In this document: positions 471 through 58,865 of the stretch, in pieces
How positions within the stretch are numbered: the first letter of the stretch is position 1
Layout: every line of letters starts with the position of its first letter
NCBI GenBank assembly: GCA_963931925.1
Contig: OZ007579.1
Span: 38,663,457-38,727,456, forward strand
DNA from: Onchidella celtica
Lineage: Eukaryota; Mollusca; Gastropoda; Systellommatophora; Onchidiidae
Reading direction: 5' to 3'
Length of the DNA: 64,000 nucleotides
Position numbers and translations under genes: made by a program
The notes under the pieces: model-generated
What the model was told of the DNA's origin: nothing
What the model saw: only the letters and a program-made list of their open reading frames with translations
Databases searched by the model: none

Positions 471-987
471 ATAAACTGCTGGTACTAAAACTTTCTAATA
501 CACCAAAGGCAGCAATTTTCATCTTTCTCACTATTTCCCATAATTTGTAGTCTCAGTTTAGCTTTAAATTTATTCCATGTGTGCATCTCTACTGTAACAG
601 TAATTTACTGTTGTTGTAGGTAAAGTCAGAAAATAGAGAAGTCAGAAAGTCAGAAACCAATGATGTATCATTGGGAGGTATTTGAGAGGCGGAAGGGGGG
701 GGGGGGATGTTATCAGATGTACTCAGAAACGTTTCCTTCCCATCTCCCAATCATCGTCATCATAATCTTCATCATCATCACCATCATCACACCAGTATCA
801 GCCCAACCGGCTGCATCATTTTCATCCGAACACCGTCATCAGTATACACAGTTTTACTGAAGTTATATTGTCTCGCCCTGAAATTGTGGCTAAACAGATG
901 AACATAAAGACATACATACAAACTGTTTTATTACTATTACACCACATCCCTCCCCCTATTTCAGAGAGATTACGTCACTTCACTCAC
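471..987. other. Spacer between module 0 and module 1 exon 3
   Basis: Short AT-rich spacer with a poly-G run near 700 and an ATC/CAT-rich patch near 760-790. The 970-987 end is the start of intron 3 of module 1 and resembles the same place in module 2. No protease exon like the one at 46160-47586 is present here, although this is where the 3' part of module 1 should be. Confidence 0.5.
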
Positions 988-1237
988 CCTCTTCTGAGGC
1001 ACCGTACAGTGTCTCTTGGTCAGCTACTCTCGCACACGCCTCCATTTTGTCTGCCAACAATTTCTCCTTCTGTTTTCTGACCTCTGGATTCTGCGGCTCC
1101 AATCTCTCAGCTTCTAAGTAATCTTTGAGTGCCAGATCATAGTCTTTGTTGTTGTGATAGGCCTGAGACACAAATAGACCACAGATATATTCAACTAGAT
1201 GACCTACCAGGCATTGCCCGGAATAAACAATCATGTG

Positions 1238-1279
<42 letters not shown>

Positions 1280-7200: not shown

Positions 7201-8615
7201 TCAGTTTTATTTTAAAAATTTCAATGACCGAAAGTTTGAGTATTTCTCTTATGATTCATTTTTACCTGTTTCTTCATTGCCCGGTTGTTGTTTTTAGTTT
7301 ACCAATACATGTATATAAGGCTTTGCAAAATAGAATTTTACAGTGTGTCAGTGATTTCCAGAATGCTCTTAGTAACCAAATTGACATTTTTTCGTTATGA
7401 TACCAGTTGATGGAGGTCTTAACCTGAATAGTTTTTACATTATTAATCTTGATCTGACATGGGCAGTTTTGTCAATATTGTCAAGGGAGTGAATTCTTTC
7501 CCCTTCTCCCCTCGTTTATCTTTATCGTTTTTTTCGGCATTCCTCTCTTTCCAGCAAACATTAACTCTGATGATTCTTTCATTCTTTCACAGTTTGTTTG
7601 TCAGGTCATTGCCCTATTCTAAACATATACAGACATGCACACACATACATACACACACCGACACTCGCCCATGCGTATACACACTCACGCAAATATACAC
7701 ACACGAGCACACACATACACTTTCTCCATTCCCTTTCCACTCCATTCAATGTTCTTAACTGTGAAACAAAAACTGGCAGTACTCGGTATTTGTCACACCA
7801 AGAGATCTAACATTTCCCTTAGTCCTAAACGCCGTCCCAAACTCTTACCTTAACCTTAACTAAACCTAACAACTGTGGTCAGATTTCTTTTATTGAAGCT
7901 GAACTGTTGCGAGTGAAAGAAATGGACAGCTGACAAAATAAACATTTGTTTTTTCAATCCTAAAATCAAATACTAAACACATAACATAAGTTTATAACAT
8001 ACCAGTCCTCTCCTAAAGTAAGCTTTAAAACTGTCATTGTCCATCTGTAAGGCCAGGCTGCAGCGCTGTATAACTTTGGCATTGTCTCCCAGCTTTAATT
8101 CACAGGCTGCTAAATTCAGGTGTGCCGTCAGTACTAGGTTATCTCTCTGTTCTTTCTCCCCACTGGTTAACGATGTTTGACTGGTCAGCAGGTCCAGGAC
8201 TTGATTGTAACTTCTTCTGGCATCTTCAAACTTTCCTGTCTGAAACATTGATTGTCAATGATGACAGACAGACAAACAGACAGAAAGACAGATAGACAGA
8301 ATGATAGGCAGATAGACAGGCATGCATAGATAGATAGATAGATAGATAGACGGTTGGATTGAATGGCATGTGGGTGGACTGTTGGATAGATGCATAGAAT
8401 GACGAATGGATGGAAGGATGGATGGCTGGATTTATGAATGGATGAATGGATAAGTAGATGGATGGGTGGACAGATGGATGGTTCGACAGATGCATGGATG
8501 AATGGCCTGATGGGTAGATCAAATGAAATGTCAACAGAAACTTTACCTTATACAAGTCATTACCACTCTTTTTGAGATTTGCCGCTTCCTCTAGTTTGTC
8601 TTCTCTGCCTTCCAT
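988..8615 (-). CDS. TPR module 1, exons 1-3 (carboxylate-clamp TPR protein)
   Basis: Three minus-strand exons: 8615-8547 (ATG, 23 codons, donor AAG|GTAAAG), 8239-8003 (acceptor TTTCAG, 79 codons, donor CTG|GTATGT) and 1162-988 (acceptor TCTCAG, donor AGG|GTGAGT). All reading phases join. The protein is a single three-motif TPR domain similar to the C-terminal TPR of FKBP4/5-type co-chaperones. The five carboxylate-clamp positions that hold the EEVD tail of Hsp70/Hsp90 are visible: K and N in LKKSGND, N in AHLNLAAC, K and R in KAYFRRG. Intron 2 is swollen to 6.8 kb by a LARD-like LTR element. If the last donor is not used, translation runs four more codons to a stop at 980. No fourth exon was found downstream before module 0. 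Exons look intact; function as a free TPR protein is uncertain. Confidence 0.75.
1244..1275. repeat. (CT)n microsatellite in intron 2 of module 1
   Basis: About 16 CT dinucleotides directly after a C run, within the intron and shortly before the LARD insertion. Confidence 0.9.
1383..2812 (+). repeat. 5' LTR of LARD-1
   Basis: 1430 bp, starting TG and ending CA. It contains runs of CTAGAT hexamers (near 2155 and 2225) that are shorter in the 3' LTR, which explains most of the 43-bp length difference. Otherwise the two LTRs differ at only a handful of bases, pointing to a fairly recent insertion. Confidence 0.9.
2813..5471 (+). other. Non-coding interior of LARD-1
   Basis: Begins with C then a probable primer-binding site, TGGAGAGGGACC (2814 on); the tRNA was not identified. 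A minisatellite of GGCAGTGTAAGACCG-type units occupies about 4140-4275. Blocks are shared in order with the interior of LARD-2 (33588-36184). Examples are the CCCATTGACCCGA block (3187 and 33792), the GAGCTCCCGAGAGG block (3921 and 34548), the TTTTTTATACAACCGATT block (4418 and 35101) and the TGTCTGCGGGTCAATGAGAT block (4976 and 35769). There is no coherent reading frame on either strand. A purine tract ends it at 5471. Confidence 0.75.
5472..6858 (+). repeat. 3' LTR of LARD-1
   Basis: 1387-bp copy of 1383-2812 with the same TG/CA ends, followed by the CACGG target duplication. Confidence 0.9.
6864..8002. other. Rest of intron 2 of module 1
   Basis: AT-rich intron sequence with a CA/CAC-rich patch at about 7630-7720. 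The part from about 7440 to 8002 resembles the corresponding intron of module 2 (about 18330-18500) and module 3. The short reading frames here are not supported as genes. Confidence 0.5.
8257..8515. repeat. GACA/GATA/GGAT microsatellite in intron 1 of module 1
   Basis: GACAGACA, GATAGATA and GGATGGAT arrays fill the short intron between exons 1 and 2. Modules 2 and 3 carry related arrays in the same intron (about 18765-18830 and 49208-49330). Confidence 0.9.
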
Positions 8616-16931: not shown

Positions 16932-17278
16932 ATAGAAATACAAAGAGAGAAATTTTTTATTTCCCCACCTCCCCTGCCCCAAATCGGTATGGTCTAGTTG
17001 AGAAGCCTAACCGTGAAACCTGAAAAGTGTTTGTAACGTGAAGGGGCGGGGGGTATTAAATCAATTCAACAACTACTGTTGTTGTTCTATCCAGTTTTAA
17101 CCAAGCTGGAGAGTCTCTGTTGTTGAAATTGTTGTCAAATAGATGGGCACGCACGCATACGCACACACACATAGCATCATATAAGTTCATCCTCTCCCCC
17201 CACCCAAAGACATACACTCACATCCACACATCCCTCATTTTGAGATACATGACTGTGTCACATCACGTCACCACTCAC
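16932..17278. other. Region downstream of module 2 exon 3
   Basis: Non-coding. 17215-17278 resembles the start of intron 3 of module 1. No protease exon follows, here or further left before the 5' flank of module 1. Confidence 0.5.
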
Positions 17279-18933
17279 CCTCTTCTGAGACACCATCGAA
17301 TCTCTCGTGGTCAGCTACTCTCGTACATGCCTCCCTTTTGTCTGCCAGCAATTTCTCCTTCTGTTTTCTGACCTCTGGATTCTGTGGCTCCAATCTCTCA
17401 GCTTCTGAGTAATCTTTGAGTGCCAGATCGCAGTCTTTGTTGTTGTGGTAGGCCTGAGACACAAATAGGTAACATTATTACAGATACTTCAGTACAGACT
17501 TGTCATTCTGTAAGGAACTATACTGTGACACAGATTTAAAGTTCCAAATGTTTGTTCAGTTTAGAACATGATCTGCATCCAGATTCATTTTTCTTTTGTG
17601 TTGTACATTTCTATTGTTCTATGTTACCAACGTTCAGTTTTTTAAAATAGTTTTCCTGGCTATTTTAGTTCTCATTGCCATACATGAACTATAGTGGCAC
17701 TGGCAGGTATTGTAAGTTTTTTGGCTAGGTTTGCTGGCAGGATCCTAGGACACTAGGCATCCCCACAAACTGTAAGTTACAACTTCTACGCATACTTCTC
17801 TTTCCCTCTCTTCATTCAAGTCAATTCCACCCCCCCCCCCCGAGAATGTGTGTGTGTATGTGTCACAAATTATATTTGGAAAGTGATTTCCAGAACAGAA
17901 TGTGCTCAGTAAACAAAAACAAAAAAAATATGGAAGAATGCATTTTTATAGTCAGAGTTCATAGCAGACTTTGATGAGCAAATTCAAGGTTTTTTCAAGG
18001 TTTTTCAAGGTCAGTCTTTTCATTTTCAAGGCACAAAACGCCGTGACAAAAACTACGCATGTCTGTGAATTGCTTATGCCCGTAAAAACCTGTGCGACTA
18101 CACCGCCGTCTCCGTTTCCGTTAGCTCTAGCGCCTAGGCCCAAATTTTTTTGTTTTTTCAATTCGATCGCGTTTTTTGGTTTTTCAAGGTTATTCAACTT
18201 CAAGGTTGTGCTCTGTTTTCCAGGCTTTTCAAGACCTTGAAAAACAATTTTCGTTTTTGGAGGTTTTTCCAGGTTTTCAAGGTCCGCTATGAACCCTGTA
18301 TAGTACCAAATGTTGATGGTGTTAAGCTGAATTCATGGACCTGATCTGATATGGACAATTCCATCAACATTCAAGGAAGTGAATTTTTTCCCCTCTTCCC
18401 CCTCCTTCTTCTCACCCTGCCATCTCTCTTTCTTGTTCAGCTGTCTGTTAATCCTAAAATAAAATGCTGAATATATATATGTAAAATAAGTTTACTACAT
18501 ACCAGTCCTCTTCTGAAGTAAGCTTTAACACTCTCCTTGTCCATCTGTAAGGCCAGGCTGCAGTACTCTATAACTCTGGCATTGTCTCTCAGCTTTAATT
18601 CACAGGCTGCTGAATTCAGGTGTGCCGTCAGTACTAGGTTATCTTTTTCTTTCTCCCCACTGGTTAACGATGTTTGACTGGTCAACAGGTCCAGGACTTG
18701 ATTGTAAGATCTCCGGGCATCTTCAAACTTTCCTGACTGAAACATTGATTGTAAACATCTGAGTGAGCGAGTGAGTAAACAAGAAAGTGGGTGACAGACA
18801 AACAGTCAGACAAACAGACAGACAGATAGTGAGATACCAAATCAACTGCCACCACAAACTTTACCTTATAGAAGTCATTGCCGATCTTTTTGATATTTGC
18901 TGCTTCCTCTGGTTTATCATCTCTATCTTCCAT
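17279..18933 (-). CDS. TPR module 2, exons 1-3 (carboxylate-clamp TPR protein)
   Basis: Exons on the minus strand are 18933-18865 (23 codons, donor AAG|GTAAAG), 18736-18503 (78 codons, one residue shorter than its paralogues at KEKDN) and 17453-17279 (donor AGG|GTGAGT). Reading phases join as in module 1. The clamp residues are conserved: IKKIGND, AHLNSAAC, KAYFRRG. Intron 2 (17454-18502) carries a MITE. The protease exon found after module 3 is absent downstream. If the final donor is unused the frame closes at 17268-17270. Upstream sequence is broken from its probable promoter region, now near 41.2 kb, by about 20 kb of nested transposons, so expression is doubtful. Confidence 0.75.
17953..18298. 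mobile_element. MITE with TATAGT target duplication
   Basis: Inverted ends CAGAGTTCATAGCAGAC and CAGGGTTCATAGCGGACC (the latter read from the right end) are flanked by TATAGT at 17947-17952 and 18299-18304. CAG-type ends suggest a hAT-derived MITE although hAT duplications are usually 8 bp. The interior is rich in CAAGGTTTTTC units. It sits in intron 2 of module 2. Confidence 0.75.
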
Positions 18934-22585: not shown

Positions 22586-23416
22586 CTAGGCTCGACTAAG
22601 GTAGTCGGCGATATGATTGCTGGTTCCTGGAATTGGTTGAATAACGAAGGTATACGGCTGCAAAGCCAATGCCCATCTAGACAAGCGTGGGCTGGACGAA
22701 CGATTCTTCGACAAAAACGTCAGTGGCTTGTGGTCTGTCTGGATACAAAATTCTCGTCCCATGAGATAACGTCCCAATTTCTGGACGGACCACACAATGG
22801 CAAGACACTCCCGCTCTATCACAGAATACTTTCTTTCTCTCTGCAATAACTTCCTACTGACATAACATACAGGATGGAAACATTCGTTCTTCTCCTGTAG
22901 AAGACAAGCGCCGACACCAGAGTCTGACGCATCCGTTCTGAGGATAAAATTAGATCGAAAATCGGGTAATATCAGAATGGGTGACGATGATAATGCTGTC
23001 ACCAAATTATCAAATGCTGTCTGACATTCAGACGTCCACTGGACCTTATCGGGTTGTCCCTTCTTAGTAAGGTCAGTAAGAGAAGATGACAAGGAGGAAA
23101 AATTTGGAATGAACTTTCTGTAATAATTTAAAATTCCCACTAAGCTTCTGACTTGTTTCTTTGTTTTAGGGATTTGCAACCCTACTAATTTGTCAATTTT
23201 TGTTACTTCAGGTCTCTGAACACCTCTACCCACGATATGTCCTAAGAATACTATCTCTGGACATGCCAAATCCATCTTTGCGGGTTTAGCAGTTAACCCA
23301 AAATGACGTAATCGTTTAAAAATTACTGTTAGTGTCTGAATATGATCAGACCATGTCGACGTATGACACGCTATATCGTCAAAGAATGACACGACATTAG
23401 GTATGTCCTTTAATAC
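22586..23416 (-). pseudogene. Truncated reverse transcriptase plus RNase H
   Basis: The open frame starts in the RT palm at PNVVSFFDDI (the YxDD box reads FFDD) and continues through the thumb (FLGHIVGRGV, LVGILNYYRKFI) into RNase H. The RNase H active-site segments are TDASDSGVGA, ERECLAIV, TDHKPL and a final HIADYLS. All RT sequence N-terminal to the FFDD box is missing. The frame abuts the integrase tail at about 23416-23425, in a different reading frame, so the junction is an internal deletion. RT activity is impossible from this copy. A stop at 22586 is followed by 350 bp to the purine tract. Confidence 0.88.
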
Positions 23417-23420
23417 CAGT

Positions 23421-23650
23421 ATGAGAATACAGATACTCTGGTCTCTCATGAAACCTCTGCAGCCTATCAACATGGAAAACCTTACTCGATCCATCCATGT
23501 GGATAGCGTAATCTACCTTTGAAACAACTCGCTCAATAACATAAGGACCTTTCCATACCATCAGTAACTTATTATGGTCCGCAGGTAATAACAATAGAAC
23601 CTTGTCTCCTGGCTTAAAAATTGTCAGTTTGGATCCTCTATCTTTATAGT
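23421..23650 (-). pseudogene. Integrase C-terminal GPY/F module
   Basis: PGDKVLLLLPADHN then VWKGPYVIERVVSKVDYAIH and FHVDRLQRF form the GPY/F domain that follows the catalytic core in Gypsy integrases. It is out of frame with the core (stop at about 23756), so a frameshift separates them. It ends at the RT deletion junction. Confidence 0.8.
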
Positions 23651-23755
23651 TTTTTTTCTCTTTTTGAAGCGATACTCGAAGCTTCTTCTGCTATAGTGCG
23701 CGCTGAAGATAATCTTTCTCTTAAATCAACAAGGTACTAAAACACTGAAATCTGC

Positions 23756-25978
23756 TTATCGTCTCCAGATGATGGCGACGTCATCATGTCCCCTAGGACT
23801 ACGACCATACATCATTTCAAAAGGAGAGAATCCCGTTGACTCCTGCCGTACCTCTCTGTACGCGAATAACACTGCAGGGATATATCTATCCCAATCTTTA
23901 GGGCGATCAGCAGCTACCTTACGCAGCATCGACTTTAACGTCGAGTTCAATCTTTCGCACATGCCATTAGCCTGCGGATGATACGGGGTGGTAGTGATGG
24001 GTTGTATGCTAAATAATCGGAACAATTCCTTCATCATTTCCGAAGTAAATTGCGCCCCCCTATCAGATAAAATCTGTTCCGGAATTCCCACCCTAGCGAA
24101 AATTCCAAACAGCGCTTCCGCGACTGCCTCAGACGTTATGGTCCGAAGGGGAACCGCCTCTGGCCATCTCGTAGCATTACATATGACCGTTAAGAAAAAT
24201 CGATTCCCCCTATCGGTAGCTGGGTGAATGGGGCCAACAAGGTCTATCGAAACCTTTTTAAACGGTTCCGAAACCGTGGGGATCTTTTGAAGAGGAGCCT
24301 GGGGTGTACGACCCTTATGCGTCGTCTTTTGGCACGCACTGCATGTCTTACAATACACTTGTACATCTCTGTGGATAGATGGCCAGTAAAAATTTTTAAG
24401 AACCCTTTCTTTGGTTCTAGCTATTCCCATATGACCCGCCAATGGGACATCATGTGCCAAATGCAATACTGTTGCGATCAGCAACGCTGGCACAACGACC
24501 TGCTTTAAAATGGAGGCCACCGTTACATACTTACGGAACAGAATGCCCGCCTGAACAACAAAGGAAGACAAGCCGTTCTTATATTTCCTCGTTTTCTCCG
24601 TTCGCGCCTCCTCAAAACATGGACTCAATGATGGGTCCTCCTTTTGTAATGTCGCCAAGCGCCCTGGTGTGATATCCAGGTTGACCGCTGGCGTTGCCAA
24701 AGGTCTAATCTTACTCCTATCACGTACCTGTCGACGTGTCTCGACTGCGGCACAAAAGTCAATACCTTTTGATTGTGACCATGCCTGCACATTCTCCTCG
24801 GAAGGGGAAACTACCCGCGATACATTACCAATGATGAGCTGGGCGCCTGGAAAACAACCAACGACTGCTTCGACTTCCCCGCTAAGGAAAGGCGTATCTA
24901 TCACTATTCTTGCCATGGGTAATTTCTCAATGGCCCCTGAAAATTGTATGCATGGGACAGTCTCACCTGTAAGCTGTGAATCCCGAATGCAGTCCCTATG
25001 CACTCCCACAACGGTAGATCCTGTATCTCGTAAAACCGAGACCGGTTCGTCCCCAACAAACCCCGGATAAACCCTAAGACCACCTCCTGTATGACATGAA
25101 TTTATAACGGGGATCTTTCTCCCACAAGGTAAAACACCGGAAGATAATAACTTCTCACAACTGGGACACTTAGAATACTGTCCGCCTCCGTTGTCCGATG
25201 TAACACACGCAGCCGCATGATGAAATTTATTAGGGGAACATGGATTGGAGCCACTGCGATTGTCATCCACGTTCGCCGCTATCCTACCTGCAGGGCAATT
25301 CACGCTGATGTGATCTGCTCTTCCGCAGTTCCAACACTTCGCGGCCCTACAATCGCGTGAAAAATGCCCCACGCGTCCGCAAATCCAACATTCCGCTCCC
25401 TGTGCTCCGCTAGACCTGGGTCCCCGTGACCCATCGCGACCGGAAGTAAAGTCCCTATGCCGTCGGTCATCGGCAAAGGTCACAAATCGCCCTCGGCCAT
25501 TACCGCGACCTAGCCCTCCTGCTCGGTCAAACTTACCGGATCCATATGCAGGTGATTGGTGATACCCCCTACGTTGCCCCTGGGCTTGCCCGTTATAGGC
25601 ACCACGCTGACGCGACCTGTCTTTATGTCCTGCCGGCGACCCCTCAACAACAGCGACGTAACCAGCATCCTGCACGTACGCCCTCGCTACTGGTTTGGAC
25701 GGATGTGCCGTACGGTATGCTTCCGCCAACTTAGATGCCTCCTGCACCGTCGCGGGTTCGTTTTCTTTCAGGAAAGCCACCAGATCTTTATGGCACGACG
25801 CGTACAGCTGGTCACGGATCATTAGGTCTTTCAATTTAGCAAAATCCGCGCCCACATGCGCCAAGTCCATCCAGTTCGTGAAATATTCTGAGTCTCGCGA
25901 CGAAGGCAGCAAAGTCCTCCCTGGTATCCGCACGTGCTCGCCTAAACTGCTCCCGGAAATATTCCTCGGTACGCGCAA
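23756..25978 (-). CDS. Gag C-terminus, zinc knuckles, protease and integrase core
   Basis: 740 codons. Residues about 30-95 are SCAN-like capsid sequence (LKDLMIRDQLYASC). Two CCHC knuckles lie at C197-C210 and C215-C228. The aspartic protease motif is DTGST at 318-322. The integrase HHCC finger is at about 509-549 (HDVPLAGH, CKTCSAC). The catalytic triad is D579, D639 and E675 with 35 residues between the last two. There is no RT between protease and integrase. The frame is open throughout, but the gag N-terminus lies in another frame, so the printed start is probably not used. The last ten or so residues follow a frameshift. Confidence 0.9.
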   Translation of the reverse strand: MRVPRNISGSSLGEHVRIPGRTLLPSSRDSEYFTNWMDLAHVGADFAKLKDLMIRDQLYASCHKDLVAFLKENEPATVQEASKLAEAYRTAHPSKPVARAYVQDAGYVAVVEGSPAGHKDRSRQRGAYNGQAQGQRRGYHQSPAYGSGKFDRAGGLGRGNGRGRFVTFADDRRHRDFTSGRDGSRGPRSSGAQGAECWICGRVGHFSRDCRAAKCWNCGRADHISVNCPAGRIAANVDDNRSGSNPCSPNKFHHAAACVTSDNGGGQYSKCPSCEKLLSSGVLPCGRKIPVINSCHTGGGLRVYPGFVGDEPVSVLRDTGSTVVGVHRDCIRDSQLTGETVPCIQFSGAIEKLPMARIVIDTPFLSGEVEAVVGCFPGAQLIIGNVSRVVSPSEENVQAWSQSKGIDFCAAVETRRQVRDRSKIRPLATPAVNLDITPGRLATLQKEDPSLSPCFEEARTEKTRKYKNGLSSFVVQAGILFRKYVTVASILKQVVVPALLIATVLHLAHDVPLAGHMGIARTKERVLKNFYWPSIHRDVQVYCKTCSACQKTTHKGRTPQAPLQKIPTVSEPFKKVSIDLVGPIHPATDRGNRFFLTVICNATRWPEAVPLRTITSEAVAEALFGIFARVGIPEQILSDRGAQFTSEMMKELFRLFSIQPITTTPYHPQANGMCERLNSTLKSMLRKVAADRPKDWDRYIPAVLFAYREVRQESTGFSPFEMMYGRSPRGHDDVAIIWRR

Positions 25979-26510
25979 ATCGGCGAAGCAGCAAAGACTT
26001 CAGCTTATCATAATCATGTACGTCTTCGCGCTGTAGCTCTTTAAAGTAGGTTAACGCTCTCCTCTGCAACAAGGAAGCCAGGTACGTGGACCATAATTGT
26101 TTATTCTCCCCCCATTGCAGTTGTGCGTTCAGTTCGAACCTGTAAAGGAAGGCGTCTATGTCGACCTTCCGGTCGTCGAACGTAGGCAGCTTAATCCTAA
26201 CGCCACCTTCATTTTGCCCCTGCCGCTCAACTGTTTCTGTTGGCGCATTCTTTTTGATTTCCAACTCGGCGATTCTTATTCGCGCCTCTCTCTCCTGTTC
26301 CTTATCCCTAGCCTCTATCTCCCTTAACTTTAACTCCCTTTCCTGCTCCATATCTTTATCCTCTCTCTCCCTTTCTTTAGCGTCTCTCTCCCTATCCTTA
26401 GCACGCTCATCGCGCAATTCCGCCTGCTGTTCTTTAATCCAGCCGCGCAGCTCCTCTCCCTCAAGGCCAAGTTCCGTACCTACTTTCATGAGCTCACGGA
26501 GATCCGCCAT
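25836..26510 (-). pseudogene. Gag N-terminal part, frameshifted
   Basis: Starts MADLRELMKVG. A charged coiled-coil stretch (about residues 25-90, rich in RERDAKERE-type repeats) is followed by a capsid-like region (IKLPTFDDRKVDIDAFLYRF, LQRRALTYFKEL, LLRRFARTEEYFREQF). Homology continues in the frame of the 740-codon ORF from about 25890 (EYFTNWMDLA). The break falls inside the capsid region, so it looks like a mutation and not the programmed gag-pol shift. No membrane segment. Confidence 0.8.
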
Positions 26511-36184: not shown

Positions 36185-37436
36185 TGTGTCAAGAACAGAT
36201 TTAATTCATAAATGTTTCCACTGAGTAAATTTTTGTGAGAGAGCAGTGAGTAATTTTTACAAACGTAATTATTGTGCGAGCCAGCATAACTTGGTCTCGT
36301 AAACAATTTGTTTTGAACAGTTTTTTTCCTAATAGATAGACAAAAGGTGTGGGGAAGGATAGACGGACAGCGTAGGTGTGCATGACTGAGCACTTTTTAT
36401 ATCTCGTGTTTTGAACTAGGTTTAGTAGAGAGGGAAGGGGTGAGTAGGAATTAAATGTTATTGAGACGTCTGTTGACGTACAGAGAAAAATCCGTGATCC
36501 AGAGTAAAAGCTCAGGGTTTTGAACATGTTAAGAATTTATTGCTATAAAATTACATTTTATTGTCTTGAGTGATTCGACCTTTGATGTCGACCCAAGGTC
36601 GTTGCGTAGGGCTGTTACTTAAAATAACTCAGTTCGGCAGCTGAGCTAGAAGTGGTTGCACCAATCACAATCCAGGAATTAGACGGTTAGCTGCAGATGC
36701 AGTCCAGTATTTAAGGCCATACAGAACTTAGTTCTGGGCCACATGTAGACAATCCATTTACGAGGTGGACGGCGAGCTCTCAGCCAGATGAGAAGTCATA
36801 GAGACGCAGCGATTGAGCTGATATGTACAGTGATGGAGCATTGTCAGAAATCTACGCTCCTGAGCCCAAGCCTACTTGTTTGAGCATTAAACCCACAGCG
36901 CTAATATCAACAGCCCTCACATTGTGAGGGCCGAATGGTGAGCTAAAGATTTTAATTCCATGCTGAATTTACAGCCACCTACACATGTAGACTGTTGACC
37001 AGTACTGCCAGACCACATGCATTTCCCGCGACCACGTGTGAACTACACCAGAGCGCGCCTGGCAGAGACGCTATATAAATATGTTTTAGTATGAAGAGAG
37101 ATAGAACTTTAAACCTTACAGGATCCGTCGCCCTCGGGCGCGGATTCTTTTGAATGTAAATTTATTGTGACTTAGATAACTTCATATTACATTGCCTTAA
37201 GTACTTCATAGTTGCTCCTCAGCTTAGCTGAGCATTTTCAGTTGCTATTGTATTCGTTATCTATTGTATATTTTATCTTTGAAATTGTTAGATATATAAA
37301 CTTTGCAGTCTGTTACTCAAATTGATTTATTTAGTTTTTAGAGTGAAAGTTGTTTAATTGTTGTTGTTTTTTTGTGCTCGTGTGATTGGGAAGCGGACCT
37401 CTTGATCTATATTCCCCAAAATCCCGATCCGCGACA
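36185..37436 (+). repeat. 3' LTR of LARD-2
   Basis: 1252-bp copy of 32336-33587, joined directly to transposase coding sequence at 37437. Confidence 0.9.
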
Positions 37437-40335
37437 GTGTGTGCTAAACACTTTAGTGATCAGTTCCTCATCCGATCTGATTCTGTTACAAGACCAGACG
37501 GAAGTGTTTTGACGGTGCAAAGATCAAAACCAAAACTTGGGGATGATGCTTACCCGTCAATTTTTCAAAATTGTCCATCGTATTTGTCTGACGAACCAGC
37601 TCCAAAAAGAAAAACACCGGAGGAAAGGCATAGGGAGGCCCAGCAAAGAGATGAGGAATCATTTTCTGATTGGTTAGAAAGTGACAAAATAGATACTTTT
37701 TCGGATTTTGGTAACAGTCTAAACAGTCATGTATCAGGGACCGTCTGGATTTATAGGCTACACAACAACGTTGAAAAACATGCCACTACCAGCACCAATT
37801 TATCCGACGAAAAGGAAAGTCCATACTGGAGTTTTTACAATTTACAAGATTTACTTAGCAGCAAGCCAGCTTTAGTTTCGGCAATTAGAGTACATTCTGA
37901 CATGCACGTAGAGATTTTCACACAAGAGAATACAGGTATTGTTCAAGTTCCAAACACATCTTTGAAATGGCTCTTTGGTCAGCAATCTCCCCTTATCCTC
38001 ACATCCTGGTCACAGTTTGATACAATGCTATCACACTTCGCCAGTGCCAGCGCCAAAGAGATGGATGTCAAACAGCAAATTCAAGTTTTTGTTGATGGCT
38101 TGCAGAATTTGTGCTTAGACGAACCAGCAGAAGAAACTGATGAGCACAGCGAAGACCAGGTTTTACCACTGAAAGACAAACTTTCCTTTTTGGTGGAACA
38201 GTTAAAGCTATTGTCTTCTCCGGTGAGACGATACTCATCTGAAACACTGCTTTGGGCTTTTCAAATTTTTGCAGCAGCCCCTAGAACCTATTCTATGTTA
38301 AGAAACTCTCATTTAACTCTACCACATACTTCATATTTGAAGAGACTTTCATCAGTATTTACTATTGGAAGCGGATTGACAGATGGAAGCGTTCACGAGG
38401 AATATTTGAAGCAAAAGTGTCAAAGTTTGAATGAGGGAGAGAGAATGGTAATTTTAATGTTAGACGAAATTCATGTCGCGCACCAAGTATCCTACAAAGA
38501 GGGAAAACTGGAAGACACAGCCTCAAATTCTCTGTCTCAAGAAGCCAGCACAGCTCAAGTTTTCATGGTATCAACCCTATTATGCAAAAGTAAAGATGTT
38601 GTGGGAATTGTTCCTGTCAAAAATTTGACTACTGATTTGTTGTACGACATGCTTCTTGAGGTTCTGAAATTGCTCCACAGCATAGGATATTCTGTTGTAT
38701 GCGTGATCTCAGACAACAACAGAGTAAATCGTAATGCATTTACCAAAATGTGTGGAGGAGAACTGAAGCTTTCTACACAGAATCCCTTCAGCAGTTCTGA
38801 GAAATTGTTCTTTCTGTTTGATACTGTGCATATATTTAAATGTATCAGAAATAACTGGCTTGCTCAGAAAGATGTGGAGAAAACATTCCAGTTTCCTTCA
38901 TTTGAAAGTTCTGCCTGTACTGAAATTATGAAAGCATCATTTTCTCATTTAAGAAAGTTGCATTCTGCTGAAAAGTCGTCTGCACTAAAACTGGCACCGG
39001 CACTGAACAAAACGGCTTTGTATCCAACAGCTACTGAAAAGCAGAACGTCAAATTGATGCTTAAAGTTTTTGATCAACGAAATATTTTTGCCTTACAGCA
39101 TTTTGAGAAGCACTGGCAGAAAGATACACGAGGCACTAGAGAATTTCTAGACATAATTCTACGTCTGTGGAACATAGTTAATGTTAAACATCCATACAAA
39201 GCTAAGAGACTCAGGAATGACGACTTTAAAGTTATAACCTCCATCTCTGATATGAACATGCAGTAGCCTATATGAAGAAAGCAGTTGAATGGCTTCAGGA
39301 GTGGCAGAAGTTAAATCTGAAACCAAGAGAAGGCACTATATCGAACGAGACAATGACTGCTCTGGATCATACACTGAGAGGCTTACAAGAAATTTCTTCC
39401 TACCTGTTAGATGAAAAAAGTTCAAATATATTTTACTTGGCAAGTTCCAAACTGACAACCTTGAATTTAGATTTAGTCAGTACAGACAAATGAGTGGATG
39501 TAACTTCCACGTGTTGGTCCAATAGTTACTTGAAGGAGAAAAAAAGCTCAAGCTAATTAGCGTCCTAAAACTGGTTTCAGCGTCCAAAGGGACTTTAACA
39601 CTCAAAGATGTCACTGAACCTCTGGAGGAAACGGTTACCCAACTGAAAGATTCTTCAGTTCAACAGTATATAGAGTTTCTGCCATTGATCCCCGACTGTG
39701 AGAACGTCGAATTAACAGAGGAACAACAAAAAGCTTTAGTATTTGTGTCAGGTTATGCAGTCTCCAAAGTACTGCCGCGCACCAACTGTGACGACTGCAA
39801 GAACGAGTTAAGACTAGACAAAACGCTTCATGTGGAGGGGGCTAATGATTGTTACACCTATTTGTCTGCTCTAGACAGAGGAGGTTTAGTGTGGCCGTCT
39901 GATCTTGCCGTGTCAATTATTACAGAAGCTTTCAAAGTTTTTCAAGTTCTGGTTGGAAAAGATGACAGTGAGAATAAATTTCTGCAGACCACAAACCACA
40001 GAATAATTCTTTTGCAATTGTCCCTGCGAAGAGTTATGGATCTGGAATTATGTCAAGGAAAATGTGAAGAATGCGGGGTTCTTTATGAAGAGGTGGCTGC
40101 CAAATGTATCAAACCAGTGGTAAATATTTTCCTGAACAATTATTCTAAAAGCTTCTGTGACCAGGCGTCATCTGCAAATACTTCAAAAAAAGTGAAGACG
40201 TTCACCAAAAGGATTTAGTTCTATCCGTCTGAGCAGCTCCTTATGTCCAGCTAAGGTAAAGCATCTTAGACTGTTCATGTTTGCAAGTTTCCTCTCACCA
40301 TCTGTCTTTTCTCCTGTCTATCAAGTGTGCATGTG

Positions 40336-46020: not shown

Positions 46021-46026
46021 TTTATT
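46021..46026 (-). terminator. Candidate polyadenylation signal
   Basis: AATAAA on the minus strand, 134 bp after the stop codon of the protease exon. Confidence 0.5.
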
Positions 46027-46159: not shown

Positions 46160-47586
46160 TTAGGGGTCAATGGAAACTCCACTTTGATTGCTGTGAACTT
46201 GCACCATCTTACTGTGTGGATGAGTCGTATTCCCCAAACCTATCTTGCCCATGATGTGGACAGGTGCCCCACTGGAGCCTGGACAGGTGGTGTTTGTGTA
46301 TTTGTAACTGGAAGAATTTTCCCTAGGTCCAACATTCCTTTCTGTGACATCACCTAGACTGATTTTCTTCGCCAGTCCGTGAGGGTGGGATACGATAAGT
46401 GTAAATGGATGATCAGAATTATAAAACTTCTTATCACAATGCTCATTGTCATTTTTGTCGCTTGCTTTTGTGTCAGACGGTCCAACAGAAAAATCCTGCA
46501 GCATACTGTTCAGCGTCACCACAGCTGTGAGGTGAAATCTGTATTTTTCCAGCATCCATTGATACCCGAATTGGTCGAGCAAGGCCTCAAAGTTATCTTT
46601 TACCTGTCGGAACTCATCACCCTTCTGATCATTTTCATCATAAGCTTCAAACAGAAGTCCGATCAAAAACTCACATAGATTACCACCGTTAACCTTGTCT
46701 AACAGACAGCGTCCATGTACGGACTGGATTTCGTCTCCTGGTTTGTGATTATGTTTCTGTACAAATTCCTCCCACATCTGTTTGGCATCACCGTTTGCGA
46801 TCTCTTTCATACTATCAATCACCCGACTTAACTCCTGGAGTGCCTCTTCCCGTTTTTCATATAAATTAAAAAATTTGACTGACAGCTCCACATCTTCGTC
46901 ACCTTCATCTTGAACTAGTCCCAAATCATACTTAACCTGCCGGCAAAGACGCTCGTAGGTCTCCAATGCCGTTTCAAGTTTTTCTGCCAACTGCAAGTCG
47001 TGAGTCACAAAATGAACGCTACTAGTATCTTTTTCAACAATGCTGTCAACGTCCACAGCTGCGCTCACGTTTGGACAAGACTTTCGGATTGTCCGATCGT
47101 CATCATAATCAAAATAACAGCTTGAATTTCTTCCCTCTGTGTTATCGAAAATCACATGCGTGGCCGTGATTATTACAATTCTTGCAAAGTGCGTTTCCGG
47201 TTTTTTAGAATTCTTGCATGTATCACAAGGACAAACTTTATTCCCGTCTCTGGGGAATATCCGTACAGCAGCTACACTTCCAGTACCTACTCGAAGTTTA
47301 TCCCTGTATCGCAAGCTGGAGAAAGGATACCTCTTTTTTGTCCCCGGCACAAACTTAGGCCGCTCGCTACTGTTTCCATTGACCCTCAGTAGAACGGTTG
47401 AACTTGTCAAAGCTTTCACGCATGCCAACATAGTTTCAGTCCTGTATTGTTTAGGAAGATCTTCCAGACAGAACTGAGAGACAGGTATGTACTCGCTGTG
47501 TCTTCCTGCCTTACGACATTGCTTTTGGTAATCTCGCAGCTCAGCCTCCTCATCATCTTCATACAGCACCACCACTTCGTGACAAT
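46160..47586 (-). CDS. TPR-protease gene, exon 4: trypsin-like serine protease
   Basis: Open frame of 475 codons ending at 46160. S1-like features: the His motif ITATHVIFD, a candidate Asp in FVTHDLQLA and the Ser motif CPGSSGAPV. In the predicted full protein these are about H304, D357 and S599. A cysteine pair motif (CPCDTCKNS) precedes the His. Between Asp and Ser there is an insertion of about 150 mostly helical residues (EEALQELSRVIDSMKE and neighbours), absent from ordinary trypsins. No signal peptide is seen, so it is probably intracellular. The acceptor TTTAACAG lies at 47587-47594; the frame upstream of it (to an ATG at 47611) overlaps SINE-derived sequence and is likely intron. The acceptor phase fits exon 3 of module 3, whose trailing G completes a GAT codon. 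Confidence 0.8.
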
Positions 47587-48113
47587 CTGTTAAACAGATA
47601 CATAGGCGCATGTTAAAGATACCTTGTCAGTTGGACAAAATTAAAAAAAAAAACAAAACACGAATCTTTACCACTCTCTGCCCTTCCAAATGGGATCAAA
47701 CAAGTATACAAAATATAAATACAACTAGAACAACAAAAAAAAAAAAAAAAACAGGAACAGGAAAAATAACAAAACAAGACCGCGAGAGTTGGAAATGCCA
47801 AGAGCAGACTCTGAGATCCCCCGAAGACAAAGGATTTAAAACACACAGGTCTATTTGTCACGGCCTGAAATTGTCTCCAACAGATGCAAACAAAGACATA
47901 CTATTTTATAGAGACAGACATGTTGTTTTCTTATCATTGCATGAAATTCCCTGTCTTCATTTAGAGCAGTGTTTCTCAATCTTTTTTTGTCACACGCACA
48001 CACTTCACTTTTCTGAAAACAACAACAACAACAACAACCGTGCCTTCTGAAGTACCAGCCCCACCAAAATACTGACATGTCCCAATGTAGAGATATCATA
48101 TTGTTTCACTCAC
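47587..48113 (-). other. Intron 3 of the TPR-protease gene, with SINE fragment
   Basis: 527-bp intron with donor GTGAGT at 48113 and acceptor TTTAACAG at 47587. About 47605-47830 on the plus strand is a SINE tail (GTTAAAGATACCTTGTCAGTTGGA, GGGATCAAACAA, GAGAGTTGGAAATGCCAAGAGC), so the printed ATG at 47611 is transposon sequence. Confidence 0.6.
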
Positions 48114-49205
48114 CCTCTTCTGAGTCACCATCCAATGTCTCTTGGTCAGCTACTCTCGCACACGCCTCCATTTTATCTGCCAGCAATTTCTCCTTCTGTT
48201 TTCTGACCTCTAGATTCTGTGGCTCCAATCTCTCAGCTTCTAAGTAATCTTTGAGTGCCAGATCATAGTCTTTGTTGTTGTGATAGGCCTGAGACACAAA
48301 TAGACAACATTACTACAGACATTTCAGGATTGGCAGAAGGACTCGTCATCCTGTGTGGACTACACTGCCGAGGGGAGTTAAGTTGCACTCATTTGTTCGT
48401 TTTAATAAAGAAATCAATTTTTCATTTTTGAGTTCATTTGTAACGAAAGATTCTAATGACCGAAAACATGCCAGTTTCTTTAACAATTTAATTTCAGTTT
48501 CAGTTTTCTTGTTAATTGTTGTAACACAGGACCTTTCAAAATGCAACTTTTATTGTTGGAATTGTTTTAAAAATAAATAAATAAATAAATTAAAAAAGTA
48601 AATAGAAAATTACACTTAGCAAGAAATTGTATACTCGTATATTTTGTCATAATGCCAGGTGATGTTCATCTCAACCTGATTACATGATCCTGATTTGATA
48701 TGGGCAGTTTTGTCATCTGTCAAGAGAGTGAATTCCTTCTTTATCATCATGTACTAGAGTTATGTCCTTTTTCCACCCAAAGCCAAAACCAACTCTGACA
48801 ACCATGTCGTTTTTATCTCATAAAAAAAAAAGAAGAAACAGAAATACACACACACTCGCCACACACACATACACACATGCACATGCCAGAACTTTCTATT
48901 AATACTAAAACCGAACGTTTTAAAACCATACGTTTACTACATACCAGACCTCTTCTGTGGTAAGCTTTGATACTCTTCTTGTCCATCTGTAAGGCCAGAC
49001 TGCAATGCTCTATTACTTTGGCATTGTCTCCCAGCTTTAATTCACAGGCTGCTAAATTCAGGTGTGCCGTCAGTACTAGGTTATCTCTCTGTTCTTTCTC
49101 CCCACTGGTTAACGATGTTTGACTGGTCAACAGGTCCAGAACTTGATTGTAACTTTTCCGGGCATCGTCAAACTTTCCTGACTGAAACATTGATTGTCAA
49201 CATGT

Positions 49206-49291
<86 letters not shown>

Positions 49292-49439
49292 GGGCGGATT
49301 GATTGAATGGCTGGATGGATGGATGGATGGATAGACAGATGGATAAAATCTATTGCCAACAGAAACTTACCCTACACAAGTCATTGCCCCTCTCTTTGAG
49401 GTTTGCCGCCTCCCCTAGTTTATCGTCTCCATCGTCCAT
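48114..49439 (-). CDS. TPR-protease gene, exons 1-3 (TPR module 3)
   Basis: Minus-strand exons are 49439-49371 (MDDGDDKLGEAAN, donor AGG|GTAAGT), 49181-48945 (79 codons, acceptor TTTCAG, donor CTG|GTATGT) and 48288-48114 (acceptor TCTCAG, donor AGG|GTGAGT). They encode one three-motif TPR domain with all five carboxylate-clamp residues: LKERGND, AHLNLAAC, KAYHRRG. This is the pattern that binds the EEVD tails of Hsp70 and Hsp90. Exon 3 ends in phase 1 and joins exon 4 (47586-46160) in frame, giving about 160 TPR-region residues plus 475 protease residues. Module 3 has the shortest introns and no insertions in coding sequence, so it looks like the functional copy. Leader exons may lie at 50218 and 50791. 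Confidence 0.82.
49208..49292. repeat. (GATA)n microsatellite in intron 1 of module 3
   Basis: About 21 GATA units followed by GGAT units, in the same intron that carries arrays in modules 1 and 2. Confidence 0.95.
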
Positions 49440-54740: not shown

Positions 54741-55733
54741 TTAGGTCCAGAGTGCCGTGAAAGTCCCGCAAAGTTTCTATGTCATACGTGTCATTTCCGA
54801 GAAGCCTAGAAATTCGGGGTAACCGGTAATGGTCACGGATACACTTGGGTCTGTTCTGTCAGCCAGGTTCGCGAAATTACGATCTTGGTAAAAAAATGTT
54901 CAATGCGCCAAACGTTTACAAAACACTGGATAAAAGAGGAATCATACTAAGAGGAATCATACTGTTTGTCAGGCCAGAGTTTTCTGCTATTGTATGACAG
55001 TACACAATACAGCCTGCTACTGTCACCCCCACTGTCTTGTGGGTCATCTCGGGAGAGAGGAAGACTAGGGGAAGGTAACCCTGAATACAAATACCACACT
55101 GCCTTGTGTGTTGCTATGATAGCAAAGGCTATGGGAGTAAACCCAGACAGAAAATCAGGAGTGGAGACCCGAAGGCGGTTGTCAGGGAGAACTGCATCAA
55201 ACTGGCTTCCAGCATCTCCTGCAGCCGGACTAGTTCCAAATGTATTGACCTGGTCTCTCCCTTGGGTTTAACTAGAATGGCAGAGAGAGGGGTGGTGCCT
55301 CTGGGCAAAGCACCATCTCTTAAAAATAGCCCAGGCAAGGCAGCAAAAGGAGGAGGCGTTTGCTCGGGCTTGGCAAGCGTCTGTCTCTCCTCTATAAGCC
55401 CACCCATTTCCGATTTGGAGAGGACACTCCAGCCATCCGTTACGGATGGGCACAACACGGGAGGTGGCAGTTACCGGTGATAAGCTCAATCCATTTGGCG
55501 TACGGATGAGCGCCAGGGGTCCCCTCTGTCGGTGGGAGCGGCTTTTCAGCTGCATTGATCAACTACCGCCCGCCGTAACCTGGGCAGCCCCCAGGCAGTT
55601 GGGTGTTGTTCCGCCACGTCAGCCTGCTTCATAAGGTGGTTGGAGCTAGACCAAAAGTCAAAAAGCTGACGTAAAGTGTGCACCTGGCAAAAACAGAAAA
55701 ATACTAAAACTTGGTACCTGGAACGTCAGAACA

Positions 55734-58700
55734 ATGCGCCCAGGCTTGCAACAGCAAGATCTCACTAACATTGACTCCATCAGGAAATCCCAAATTATTG
55801 ATCGAGAACTTCAGCTACTAAACATCGACATCGCTGCCCTTCAAGAAACTCGACTTCCCGACTCCGGGTCAGTCAAAGAAGAAAACTACACCTTCTTCTG
55901 GCAGGGCCTTAGCAGCGAACAGCCGAGAATCCACGGCGTGGGCTTCGCCGTAAAAAACTCCCTTATCAATTCGATCGCAACTCCAATTGGAGTGTCAGAA
56001 CGCATCATGACACTCAGACTGAACACCCGGTCTGGTTTTACCAACATTATCTGTGTCTATGCCCCAACACTTACCTCCTCTGACGAAACCAAAGACATTT
56101 TCTACGAGGCATTGCAGAGGACTCTCCACAACATCCCTCTCACCGAAGGCCTGCTAATTCTGGGTGACTTTAACGCTCGAGTGGGAGCAGATCACTCCGC
56201 ATGGCCAAAGTGCATTGGGCACTTCGGCATTGGCAACATCAACGAAAACGGGAAGCGCCTTCTGGAGCTATGCTCCGTAAACTCATTATGTGTTACAAAC
56301 ACGTACTTTGACCTTAAGAGATGCCAAAGAACATCATGGCGCCATCCCAGGTCTGGCCATTGGCATCAATTAGATCTTATTCTCTCAAGGAGGAAGAGTT
56401 TGGGCTGTATAAAAATAACTCGTTCCCTCCACAGTGCTGACTGTGACACCGACCATGCACTGGTAGTCAGCAAAATCAAAATTTCGGCCAAGAAAATATA
56501 CAGATCAAAAGCCCCTTCAATCCCTAAGATCAATGTAACAGCAATCAGAGATGAATCAAATAGAAAGTCATTTGAAAAGTTATTCGCTGAAAGCATGGAT
56601 AATGTCACCCAATGTGACTCGGTAGATGAAACATGGAACACTCTCAGTTCAAAAATTCATGACTGTGCCATCAAGTCTTTTGGACAGCATAAAGTTTCAA
56701 ACAACGACTGGGTAGCCCAGAACAGCGAAATTCTCCTACCTCTCATTGAGCAAAAGAAATCTGCTTTCAATGAGTATAACAAAAATTGCAATCAGAGTAC
56801 AAAAACTTGTTTGAAAAATGCAAAAGCTAAACTTCAGCTGGAGGTAAGACGTTGCGCCAACAAATACTGGACAGACTTGTGTAACAGCATACAAGAGGCA
56901 AATGAAAAGGGAGATATGAAAACCGCCTTTAGTCAGATGAAAGTAGCCCTTGGGCCAATCATCACCAAAAGCGCCCCACTTAAGTCTGTAAATGGTGAAC
57001 CCATCACAGATAAAAATGAACAACTGAATAGGTGGGTAGAGCATTACTCTCTGTTGTATTCAACTCAGAAAAATATTCCACCAGATTTTGAGGAACACCT
57101 CCAAAAACTGCCAATAATGGCCGAACTTGACGCTGAACCTTCCTTAGTCGAGCTTTCCAATGCAATCGACCACCTGTCTGCTGGAAAAGCCACAGGAAGT
57201 GACAACATTCCTGCAGAGGTATTAAAAGACCTAAAAGGCCCACTATTACCACACCTGTATAATCTGTTACTGCAGTGTTGGAAAGAAGGCGTGATACCAC
57301 ATGATATGAGAGACGCCAAAATTGTCACACTTTACAAGAACAAAGGAGACAAAGGCGACTGCAACAACTATCGAGGCATATCCCTCCTCAGCATTACTGG
57401 AAAGGCTTTTGCTCGCGTCATCCTCTGCCGCCTTCAACAACTGGCGGAAAAAGTCTTACCAGAAACACAATGTGGCTTTCGAAGCAAACGATCAACTATT
57501 GACATGATATTTGCACTTCGGCAAATCCAAGAAAAATGTAAAGAACAAAACAGGCCGCTTATAACATGCTTTGTGGACCTAACAAAGGCTTTCGACACCG
57601 TAAGCCGATCTGGCCTGTATGCAATCCTTAAATCCATAGGCTGTCCACCAACATTGCTAAAACTTATTGCATCCTTCCACACTGACATGAGGGCATGTGT
57701 CAACTTTGAGGGCTGGACATCCAATTCATTTGCTGTAAACAGCGGTGTGAAGCAGGGATGTGTTCTTGCTCCTACCTTATTTGGTATATATTTTGCAGCC
57801 CTACTCAAGAATGCCTTTGGTCAATGTTCAGGTGGAGTACTTATTAACACCAGAGTGGACGGCTCCATTTTTAATGTTGCCAGACTAAAAGCAAAATCTC
57901 GTACAGAGCATATTATGTTACAAGAGCTCCTCTTCGCAGATGATGCTGCAATCGTGGCCCACGATGAAACCACGCTCCAGGCTCTCATCAATAGCCTTGC
58001 CAAAGCCTGTGACAAATTCATGCTAAAGATCAGTGTCTCAAAAACTGTAGTTTTGACACAAGGCTTGAGAAACTCCAACCCAATCATGCTGAATGGCTCT
58101 CCTCTGGAGCAAGTGGGAAAATTCTGCTACCTAGGCTCAACCATCAGTGGTAGCACAGACATAACAACTGAAATAAATGCCAGAATAGGAAAGGCGGCCA
58201 CAGCTTTTGGCAAACTCTCAAAAAGGGTGTGGAACAATAGCAAGCTGACCATCAAAACAAAGGTACTCGTGTACCAAACTTGCGTCCTAAGCACCCTGCT
58301 GTATGGCTCAGAGACATGGACCACCTACTCCAAACATGAAAGATCCCTCAACTCCTTCCACCTGCGCTGCCTACGCAAAATTCTCAAGATCAAGTGGCAA
58401 GACAGGATCTCAAATATCGAAGTTCTGAGCCGAGCCAACATTCCATCAACTCAGGCTCTCCTAGGCAAAAAAAGACTGCGGTGGCTTGGACATCTCCACC
58501 GTATGGATAATGATCGCATCCCCAGACAAATTCTCTACGGGGAACTTGCTACTGGCAACCGACCCAGAGGTAGGCCACATCTGCGATTCAAAGACACTTG
58601 CAAGGTCACGATGAAAGCATTCAACATCGACCCCAATGAATGGGAGAACCTTGCAAGTGATCGAAGCAGATGGAGACAAAAATTGCGCAGTGGCACGCTC

Positions 58701-58865
58701 GCAATAGACTTCAAGGCAAAAGAAACATACCTGACAAAACGACAGAGGCGGAATGAAAACACTCGCCAAAGTGAACCCAAAAGACTGACCTGCAATCACT
58801 GCCATCGCACTCTCGGGTCAAACATTGGTAGAATAAGCCACGAGAGAAGCTGTCAGTCAAAGTGA
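55734..58865 (+). CDS. LINE ORF: AP endonuclease-reverse transcriptase
   Basis: 1043 codons without a break. Endonuclease: ALQETR (E38), GDFNARVG (144-151), SWRHPRSGHWHQLDLIL, and D240-H241 in CDTDHALV. RT: NYRGISLL (545-552), FVDLTKAFDTV (D615), GVKQGCVLAP (671-680), FADDAA (734-739). A C-terminal region (RRLRWLGHLHRM, RPRGRPHLRFKD) and a zinc-finger-like C-x2-C-x12-H-x3-C (C1020, C1023, H1036, C1040) follow. The first endonuclease strand (LGTWNVRTM) begins before the ATG. The frame is open back to 55650, but the only ATG in it is 55734, so translation may begin at a non-AUG codon or after an upstream frame. It is intact and potentially active. Confidence 0.93.
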   Translation: MRPGLQQQDLTNIDSIRKSQIIDRELQLLNIDIAALQETRLPDSGSVKEENYTFFWQGLSSEQPRIHGVGFAVKNSLINSIATPIGVSERIMTLRLNTRSGFTNIICVYAPTLTSSDETKDIFYEALQRTLHNIPLTEGLLILGDFNARVGADHSAWPKCIGHFGIGNINENGKRLLELCSVNSLCVTNTYFDLKRCQRTSWRHPRSGHWHQLDLILSRRKSLGCIKITRSLHSADCDTDHALVVSKIKISAKKIYRSKAPSIPKINVTAIRDESNRKSFEKLFAESMDNVTQCDSVDETWNTLSSKIHDCAIKSFGQHKVSNNDWVAQNSEILLPLIEQKKSAFNEYNKNCNQSTKTCLKNAKAKLQLEVRRCANKYWTDLCNSIQEANEKGDMKTAFSQMKVALGPIITKSAPLKSVNGEPITDKNEQLNRWVEHYSLLYSTQKNIPPDFEEHLQKLPIMAELDAEPSLVELSNAIDHLSAGKATGSDNIPAEVLKDLKGPLLPHLYNLLLQCWKEGVIPHDMRDAKIVTLYKNKGDKGDCNNYRGISLLSITGKAFARVILCRLQQLAEKVLPETQCGFRSKRSTIDMIFALRQIQEKCKEQNRPLITCFVDLTKAFDTVSRSGLYAILKSIGCPPTLLKLIASFHTDMRACVNFEGWTSNSFAVNSGVKQGCVLAPTLFGIYFAALLKNAFGQCSGGVLINTRVDGSIFNVARLKAKSRTEHIMLQELLFADDAAIVAHDETTLQALINSLAKACDKFMLKISVSKTVVLTQGLRNSNPIMLNGSPLEQVGKFCYLGSTISGSTDITTEINARIGKAATAFGKLSKRVWNNSKLTIKTKVLVYQTCVLSTLLYGSETWTTYSKHERSLNSFHLRCLRKILKIKWQDRISNIEVLSRANIPSTQALLGKKRLRWLGHLHRMDNDRIPRQILYGELATGNRPRGRPHLRFKDTCKVTMKAFNIDPNEWENLASDRSRWRQKLRSGTLAIDFKAKETYLTKRQRRNENTRQSEPKRLTCNHCHRTLGSNIGRISHERSCQSK

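Follow-up and report, generated by a model that had tools for sequence, protein, structure and literature searches.

CHIP consists of a TPR domain and a U-box, PP5 of a TPR domain and a phosphatase, and FKBP51 and FKBP52 of a PPIase and a TPR domain. All of them place a three-repeat TPR with a five-residue carboxylate clamp beside an enzyme, as does the gene from Onchidella celtica described here; yet the enzyme is a ligase, a phosphatase or an isomerase in the known proteins, whereas in the Onchidella gene it is predicted to be a protease of the S1 fold. The clamp is defined, in the accessible part of PMC2939883, by three TPR motifs with Lys5 and Asn9 in the first, Asn6 in the second, and Lys2 and Arg6 in the third, and TPRs of this kind bind EEVD tails. 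CHIP marks proteins bound to Hsp70 or Hsp90 for degradation, according to the abstract of PMC6433865. The best reading of the Onchidella protein is, in our analysis, that of a chaperone-docked cytosolic protease, with a logic like that of CHIP or PP5. Unlike CHIP, its protease exon (exon 4) has no match to the U-box at E ≤ 1 in a Pfam scan.

On the protease side, the closest systems are HtrA/Deg, FAM111 and a set of prokaryotic effectors. HtrA/Deg proteases, whose chymotrypsin fold exon 4 is predicted to share, are the top Foldseek matches of its structure model, but a Pfam scan of the exon gave no match at E ≤ 1 to the PDZ domain that HtrA/Deg proteases carry at their C-terminus. Vertebrate FAM111A has N-terminal UBL domains (PMC9798293, accessible part); where FAM111A has these, the Onchidella gene has a putative clamp TPR and, in addition, an insert in the protease. 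Pfam scans of exon 4 and of the TPR part yielded no match to the two N-terminal UBL domains of FAM111, which Pfam may not model. Effectors combining TPR and trypsin-like peptidase modules are likewise described for fast-evolving prokaryotic conflict systems in the accessible text of PMC8195603; this text mentions no clamp TPR, and the likeness is one of module combination.

Proteins that link a clamp TPR to an enzyme have precedents. A protease in the role of that enzyme, the insert and the family expansion were not found described in a literature search that proceeded at the level of titles and listings and covered subscription journals thinly, and neither was a clamp-TPR/trypsin fusion as such. 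The literature checked for such a fusion includes the accessible parts of PMC6212638, PMC9798293, PMC8195603, PMC2939883 and PMC6767649, none of which showed one; the main text of the last of these, which deals with trypsin architectures, does not mention TPR.

Gene structure and the TPR clamp

The window, i.e. the whole stretch of 64,000 nucleotides that was analysed, corresponds to C13:38663457-38727456 in a genome of 1.14 Gb. It contains several mobile elements: a 1071-residue open frame with endonuclease and reverse transcriptase domains of a LINE-type element (55650-58862, plus strand), a transposase-like frame with a TNP-like RNase H domain (37386-39263, plus strand), and retrotransposon frames with zinc knuckle, integrase, reverse transcriptase and RNase H domains (22589-25999, minus strand). 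The features of the gene are the following:

49439-49371, minus strand: exon 1, with ATG start; first half of TPR1, including K15 and N19; donor AGG/GTAAGT, phase 0
49181-48945, minus strand: exon 2, acceptor TTTCAG, donor CTG/GTATGT, phase 0; rest of TPR1, TPR2 and start of TPR3, including N65, K95 and R99
48288-48114, minus strand: exon 3, acceptor CTCAG, donor GAGG/GTGAGT, phase 1; rest of TPR3, a helix and an acidic linker
47587-48113, minus strand: intron of 527 bp between the TPR exons and the protease exon, splice motifs and phase kept in paralogues
47586-46160, minus strand: exon 4, acceptor TTTAACAG, ending in TAA; predicted chymotrypsin-fold serine protease of 475 codons, including the split one
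47156-47158, 47027-47029 and 46271-46273, minus strand: putative catalytic residues H144, D187 and S439 (exon-4 numbering)
46409-46891, minus strand: helical insert, exon-4 residues 233-393, between the catalytic Asp and Ser
46021-46026, minus strand: AATAAA, a sequence motif past the stop and possible polyadenylation signal

The initial annotation had proposed four exons on one strand, with a gap of 527 bp between the third and the fourth. These exons, with their splice sites and phases, are all present in the sequence; exons 3 and 4 join in frame, and the four together form a single open frame of 635 residues. No signal peptide is apparent, as had also been proposed: the N-terminus is not hydrophobic, the best 12-residue Kyte-Doolittle mean being 0.73 for windows starting at residues 1-40 (hydropathy scan alone).

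The TPR part matches Pfam TPR_1 with an E-value of 3.4e-17. Its sequence matches in the PDB begin with designed TPR proteins, and the best natural ones are SPAG1 (4.4e-20) and then FKBP4 (5.6e-17). All five clamp residues are in place (K15, N19, N65, K95 and R99, at the motif positions given in the accessible part of PMC2939883), in agreement with the earlier reading. Among the copies in the genome whose TPR exons are present, the exon-2 clamp residues are conserved in 13 of 13 and the exon-1 Asn in 10 of 10, while the exon-1 Lys is conserved in 9 of 10, with Arg in the remaining one (locus L010 was re-read by eye). The same genome encodes an Hsp90 with a C-terminal MEEVD, and from this and the clamp residues we infer that the TPR would bind chaperones.

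The protease exon and its relatives

Modelling of the protein structure, which the initial annotation had suggested as a check, gives a predicted chymotrypsin (S1) fold for exon 4, and structure searches place this model near HtrA, FAM111A and the glutamyl endopeptidases; the match lists also contain pathogen proteases and toxins. Sequence searches of the PDB with exon 4 and with a profile of the own-genome copies (A2) matched no protease, and the evidence for the fold comes from models. Pfam Trypsin_2 falls below its cut-off on the window copy (16.6 vs 27.6 bits) and matches 14 of 24 family members at E ≤ 0.01. This shortfall is the result of a weak profile; the S1 assignment rests on the modelled fold and on the triad.

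For the protease, His, Asp and Ser motifs had been reported in the initial annotation. The triad is indeed kept, but the catalytic Asp had to be corrected, the most likely residue being D187 of exon 4. None of the 21 rows of alignment A1, which comprises the relatives and the window copy, departs from H144, D187 and S439, nor does any of the 16 full copies from the same genome. The intact triad, the predicted chymotrypsin fold and the lack of a hydrophobic N-terminus support an intracellular protease of the active type. Thr434 and His458 of the protease exon are also invariant in the relatives and the own-genome copies; they resemble the pocket of glutamyl endopeptidases, which might, at a guess, mean a preference for acidic substrates.

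Searches with exon 4 yielded 20 gastropod relatives (E 4.4e-44 to 4.1e-12, 27-41% identity), uncharacterised S1 proteins from Lymnaea, Physella, Biomphalaria, Bradybaena, Arion and Elysia. They share with exon 4 the invariant His, Asp, Ser and Cys positions, but none of the 20 has a TPR, all 20 lack the 160-residue insert that separates Asp from Ser in exon 4, and their N-termini vary where exon 4 begins. The insert, which had escaped the initial annotation, is helical and splits the protease between the catalytic Asp and Ser. It is found in all nine own-genome copies of alignment A2 and is the most variable part of exon 4, with 5 of 161 positions invariant across 16 copies. Two of the relatives have peculiarities of their own: P0001 (Lymnaea stagnalis, 666 residues) apparently comprises a tandem pair of protease domains, and in P0018 (Physella) a different long insert precedes the His motif.

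The same domain order in other molluscs, for which the initial annotation had proposed to search, did not turn up: none of 21 database relatives of the protease has a TPR Pfam domain. These are the 20 from the exon-4 search and one from a search with a 24-row profile, in which the 7998 candidates sharing most words were scored. When the full 635-residue protein was used as query, its TPR region gave three multi-repeat proteins and no fusion at an E-value cut-off of 1e-15, which hides distant TPR proteins. The collection used in these searches for fusions elsewhere was one without a close relative of Onchidella celtica that they could show. By its sequence, the protease belongs to a gastropod family, and its join to a TPR has so far been seen only in the genome of Onchidella celtica.

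Copies across the Onchidella genome

The initial annotation had overlooked that the gene has many copies, a large part of them without a detectable TPR exon 2. Exon 4 matches at at least 90 places in its own genome, a lower bound, as 90 of 292 first-look candidates were scored. Exon 3 has 73 matches and exon 2 has 70, some of the latter being fragments or other TPR genes. Within 15 kb, exon 3 lies upstream on the same strand in 56 of the 90 protease exons and downstream on the same strand in 3, with none on the opposite strand in either direction; within 5 kb, the same-strand counts are 40 upstream and 1 downstream. Conversely, 58 of the 73 exon 3 matches are followed by a protease exon within 15 kb and 15 are not, and the pairing is not strictly one to one. 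The TPR-protease arrangement is more than chance, given that exon order and strand are repeated from copy to copy across the genome.

Exons 2, 3 and 4 occur in order at 18 of the 90 protease exons; at 38 exon 3 alone was found, at 9 exon 2 alone, and at 25 neither of them. An exon 1 like that of the window copy is present in 9 of the 20 loci L009-L028, the window locus included, and in two further TPR copies in the window, B and C (see below). Because no exon 2 was found near many protease exons, many members may lack a working clamp. In six loci where exon 3 is present and exon 2 is not in hand (L015, L016, L017, L019, L026, L028), a replacement N-terminal exon was not apparent, as no stretch of more than 60 bp upstream of the exon-3 block was common to three or more other loci. 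L012 and L021, in which exon 3 was not found, have one shared upstream stretch each, and L027 has none.

In one subfamily (loci L032-L045, on C15, C11, C9 and further contigs), exon 3 is retained together with its donor, but its TPR3 is altered. The upstream region of these loci yielded no exon 2, and the clamp may be lost there; in two distant copies, the stretch upstream of exon 3 is free of exon 2 for 8 kb (C15) and 7 kb (C9).

The two further TPR copies in the window are:

17274-18933, minus strand: copy B, exons 1-3; phase-1 donor kept, in-frame stop moved by one codon (TGG TGA)
983-8615, minus strand: copy C, exons 1-3; protease exon outside the window

Downstream of copy B, no protease exon follows within 15 kb. 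That of copy C (locus L028) is located at C13:38659398-38660663, 3,781 bp beyond exon 3, and the last part of its protease is in another frame. Within the window, the family profile matched exon 4 only, all other scores having an E-value of 0.32 or worse.

The proteins change fast. In pairwise comparisons, exon 4 has a median dN/dS of 0.53 (16 copies, 120 pairs), exon 2 one of 0.43 (45 pairs) and exon 3 one of 0.48 (66 pairs). Between exon 4 of the window copy and its nearest paralogue dN/dS is 0.41, with dN above dS in 0 of 1000 bootstraps. Six close exon-4 pairs were compared pairwise, a comparison in which gene conversion can lower dS; the only one near significance is L025-L026 (dN/dS 1.38, dN above dS in 978 of 1000 bootstraps), followed by L022-L023 (1.18, 785 of 1000), and the other four range from 0.41 to 0.80. 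This is weak evidence of positive selection.

Probable chaperone docking and its alternatives

We consider it probable, at roughly 0.6, that exons 1-4 form one gene for a 635-residue cytosolic protein, whose clamp TPR docks on the EEVD of Hsp90 or Hsp70 and whose protease cleaves chaperone-bound proteins. This would best explain the gene structure, its recurrence, the splice phase and the clamp and triad residues, all read from the sequence, together with the modelled fold; the transcript, EEVD binding, catalysis, the substrates and the role of the insert are what we infer from them. A chaperone-tethered intracellular protease had already been proposed in the initial annotation. Its fusion and its intracellular protease, here of the active type, are supported by gene structure, phase, triad and predicted fold, while chaperone binding stays a prediction; a role in quality control or defence, also proposed there, may follow.

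In the protein, an N-terminal three-repeat carboxylate-clamp TPR would be followed by an acidic linker and by a serine protease of the chymotrypsin fold that contains the helical insert. The likeliest docking site of the TPR is the EEVD at the C-terminus of Hsp90 or Hsp70. Docking there would hold the protease beside chaperone-bound proteins, some of them being cleaved, much as CHIP brings a ubiquitin ligase to such proteins, and the fast-changing insert probably sets the choice of substrate or partner. Members without a detectable exon 2 imply that the protease also works clamp-free, that these members are decaying, or that their TPR exons are too far away or too changed to be found.

It is conceivable, if rather unlikely, that the fusion is real but that chaperones are not its target: the TPR might recognise a different acidic tail or have a part in folding, localisation or self-inhibition, the protease acting alone, for example against pathogens. 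Chaperone-independent use is implied by the relatives that have no TPR and by the own-genome members in which exon 2 was not found, and it is the insert that varies most; yet wherever the TPR exons are intact the clamp residues are near-invariant, which is what EEVD binding would lead one to expect.

The window copy would also allow for two adjacent genes, one for a small TPR co-chaperone that ends just past exon 3, the other for a protease with its start near exon 4, which were duplicated together and are not spliced to each other. Unspliced read-through of its exon 3 meets a TGA at 48108-48106, a point missed in the initial annotation, so that a stand-alone TPR protein of 162 residues is possible judging from this copy alone, and an in-frame ATG lies 25 bases upstream of its exon 4. 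Further, a Met at exon-4 residue 5, which could act as start, is present in 16 of 19 loci, the window copy not among them, and in 0 of 14 distant copies. The other copies argue against two genes. The GT donor of exon 3 is at phase 1 in 16 of 16 copies from loci L009-L028 and in 14 of 14 copies of more distant subfamilies on six contigs; the CAG acceptor of exon 4 is at phase 1 in all 19 loci whose exon start was read (a count that leaves out L027, a partial match) and, by eye, in 13 of 14 distant copies. In contrast, a stop next to the exon-3 donor occurs in 7 of 16 near and 0 of 14 distant copies (7 of 30), and an in-frame Met between the exon-4 acceptor and the nearest upstream stop in 6 of 19 loci. 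Over 14 copies, the distances in exon 3 correlate with those in exon 4 (Mantel r 0.30, a value reached in 15 of 5000 permutations). That the splice sites are kept while a separate TPR stop and protease start are not argues for one spliced transcript and makes two genes quite improbable. The fusion put forward in the initial annotation is well supported by the repeated gene structure, by the splice phase and by the fact that neither a TPR stop nor a protease start ahead of exon 4 is conserved.

Very improbable is a largely decaying array in which the window copy is the relic of a once useful fusion, for although stops interrupt 11 of the 90 protease matches, no protease goes with copy B and that of copy C shifts frame near its end, the other 79 are free of internal stops and the window copy is open over four exons, with clamp and triad kept and a dN/dS of 0.41 to its nearest paralogue.

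A tentative extension of the chaperone-docked reading, which we regard as possible but unlikely, is a lineage-specific expansion of docked intracellular proteases in cell-intrinsic defence, in which the TPR would read chaperone occupancy, the insert would recognise foreign or damaged proteins and the protease would cut them. If true, this would join the logic of FAM111A, an intracellular antiviral S1 protease, to that of CHIP, with its chaperone docking. Hsp70 and Hsp90 recruit phosphatases, isomerases and ubiquitin ligases through clamp TPRs, and a protease joined to such a clamp would make direct proteolysis at the chaperone testable. With at least 90 places in the genome, an insert more variable than the protease core and proteins that change rapidly, these genes resemble families in evolutionary conflict and provide a concrete set of mollusc genes to assay.
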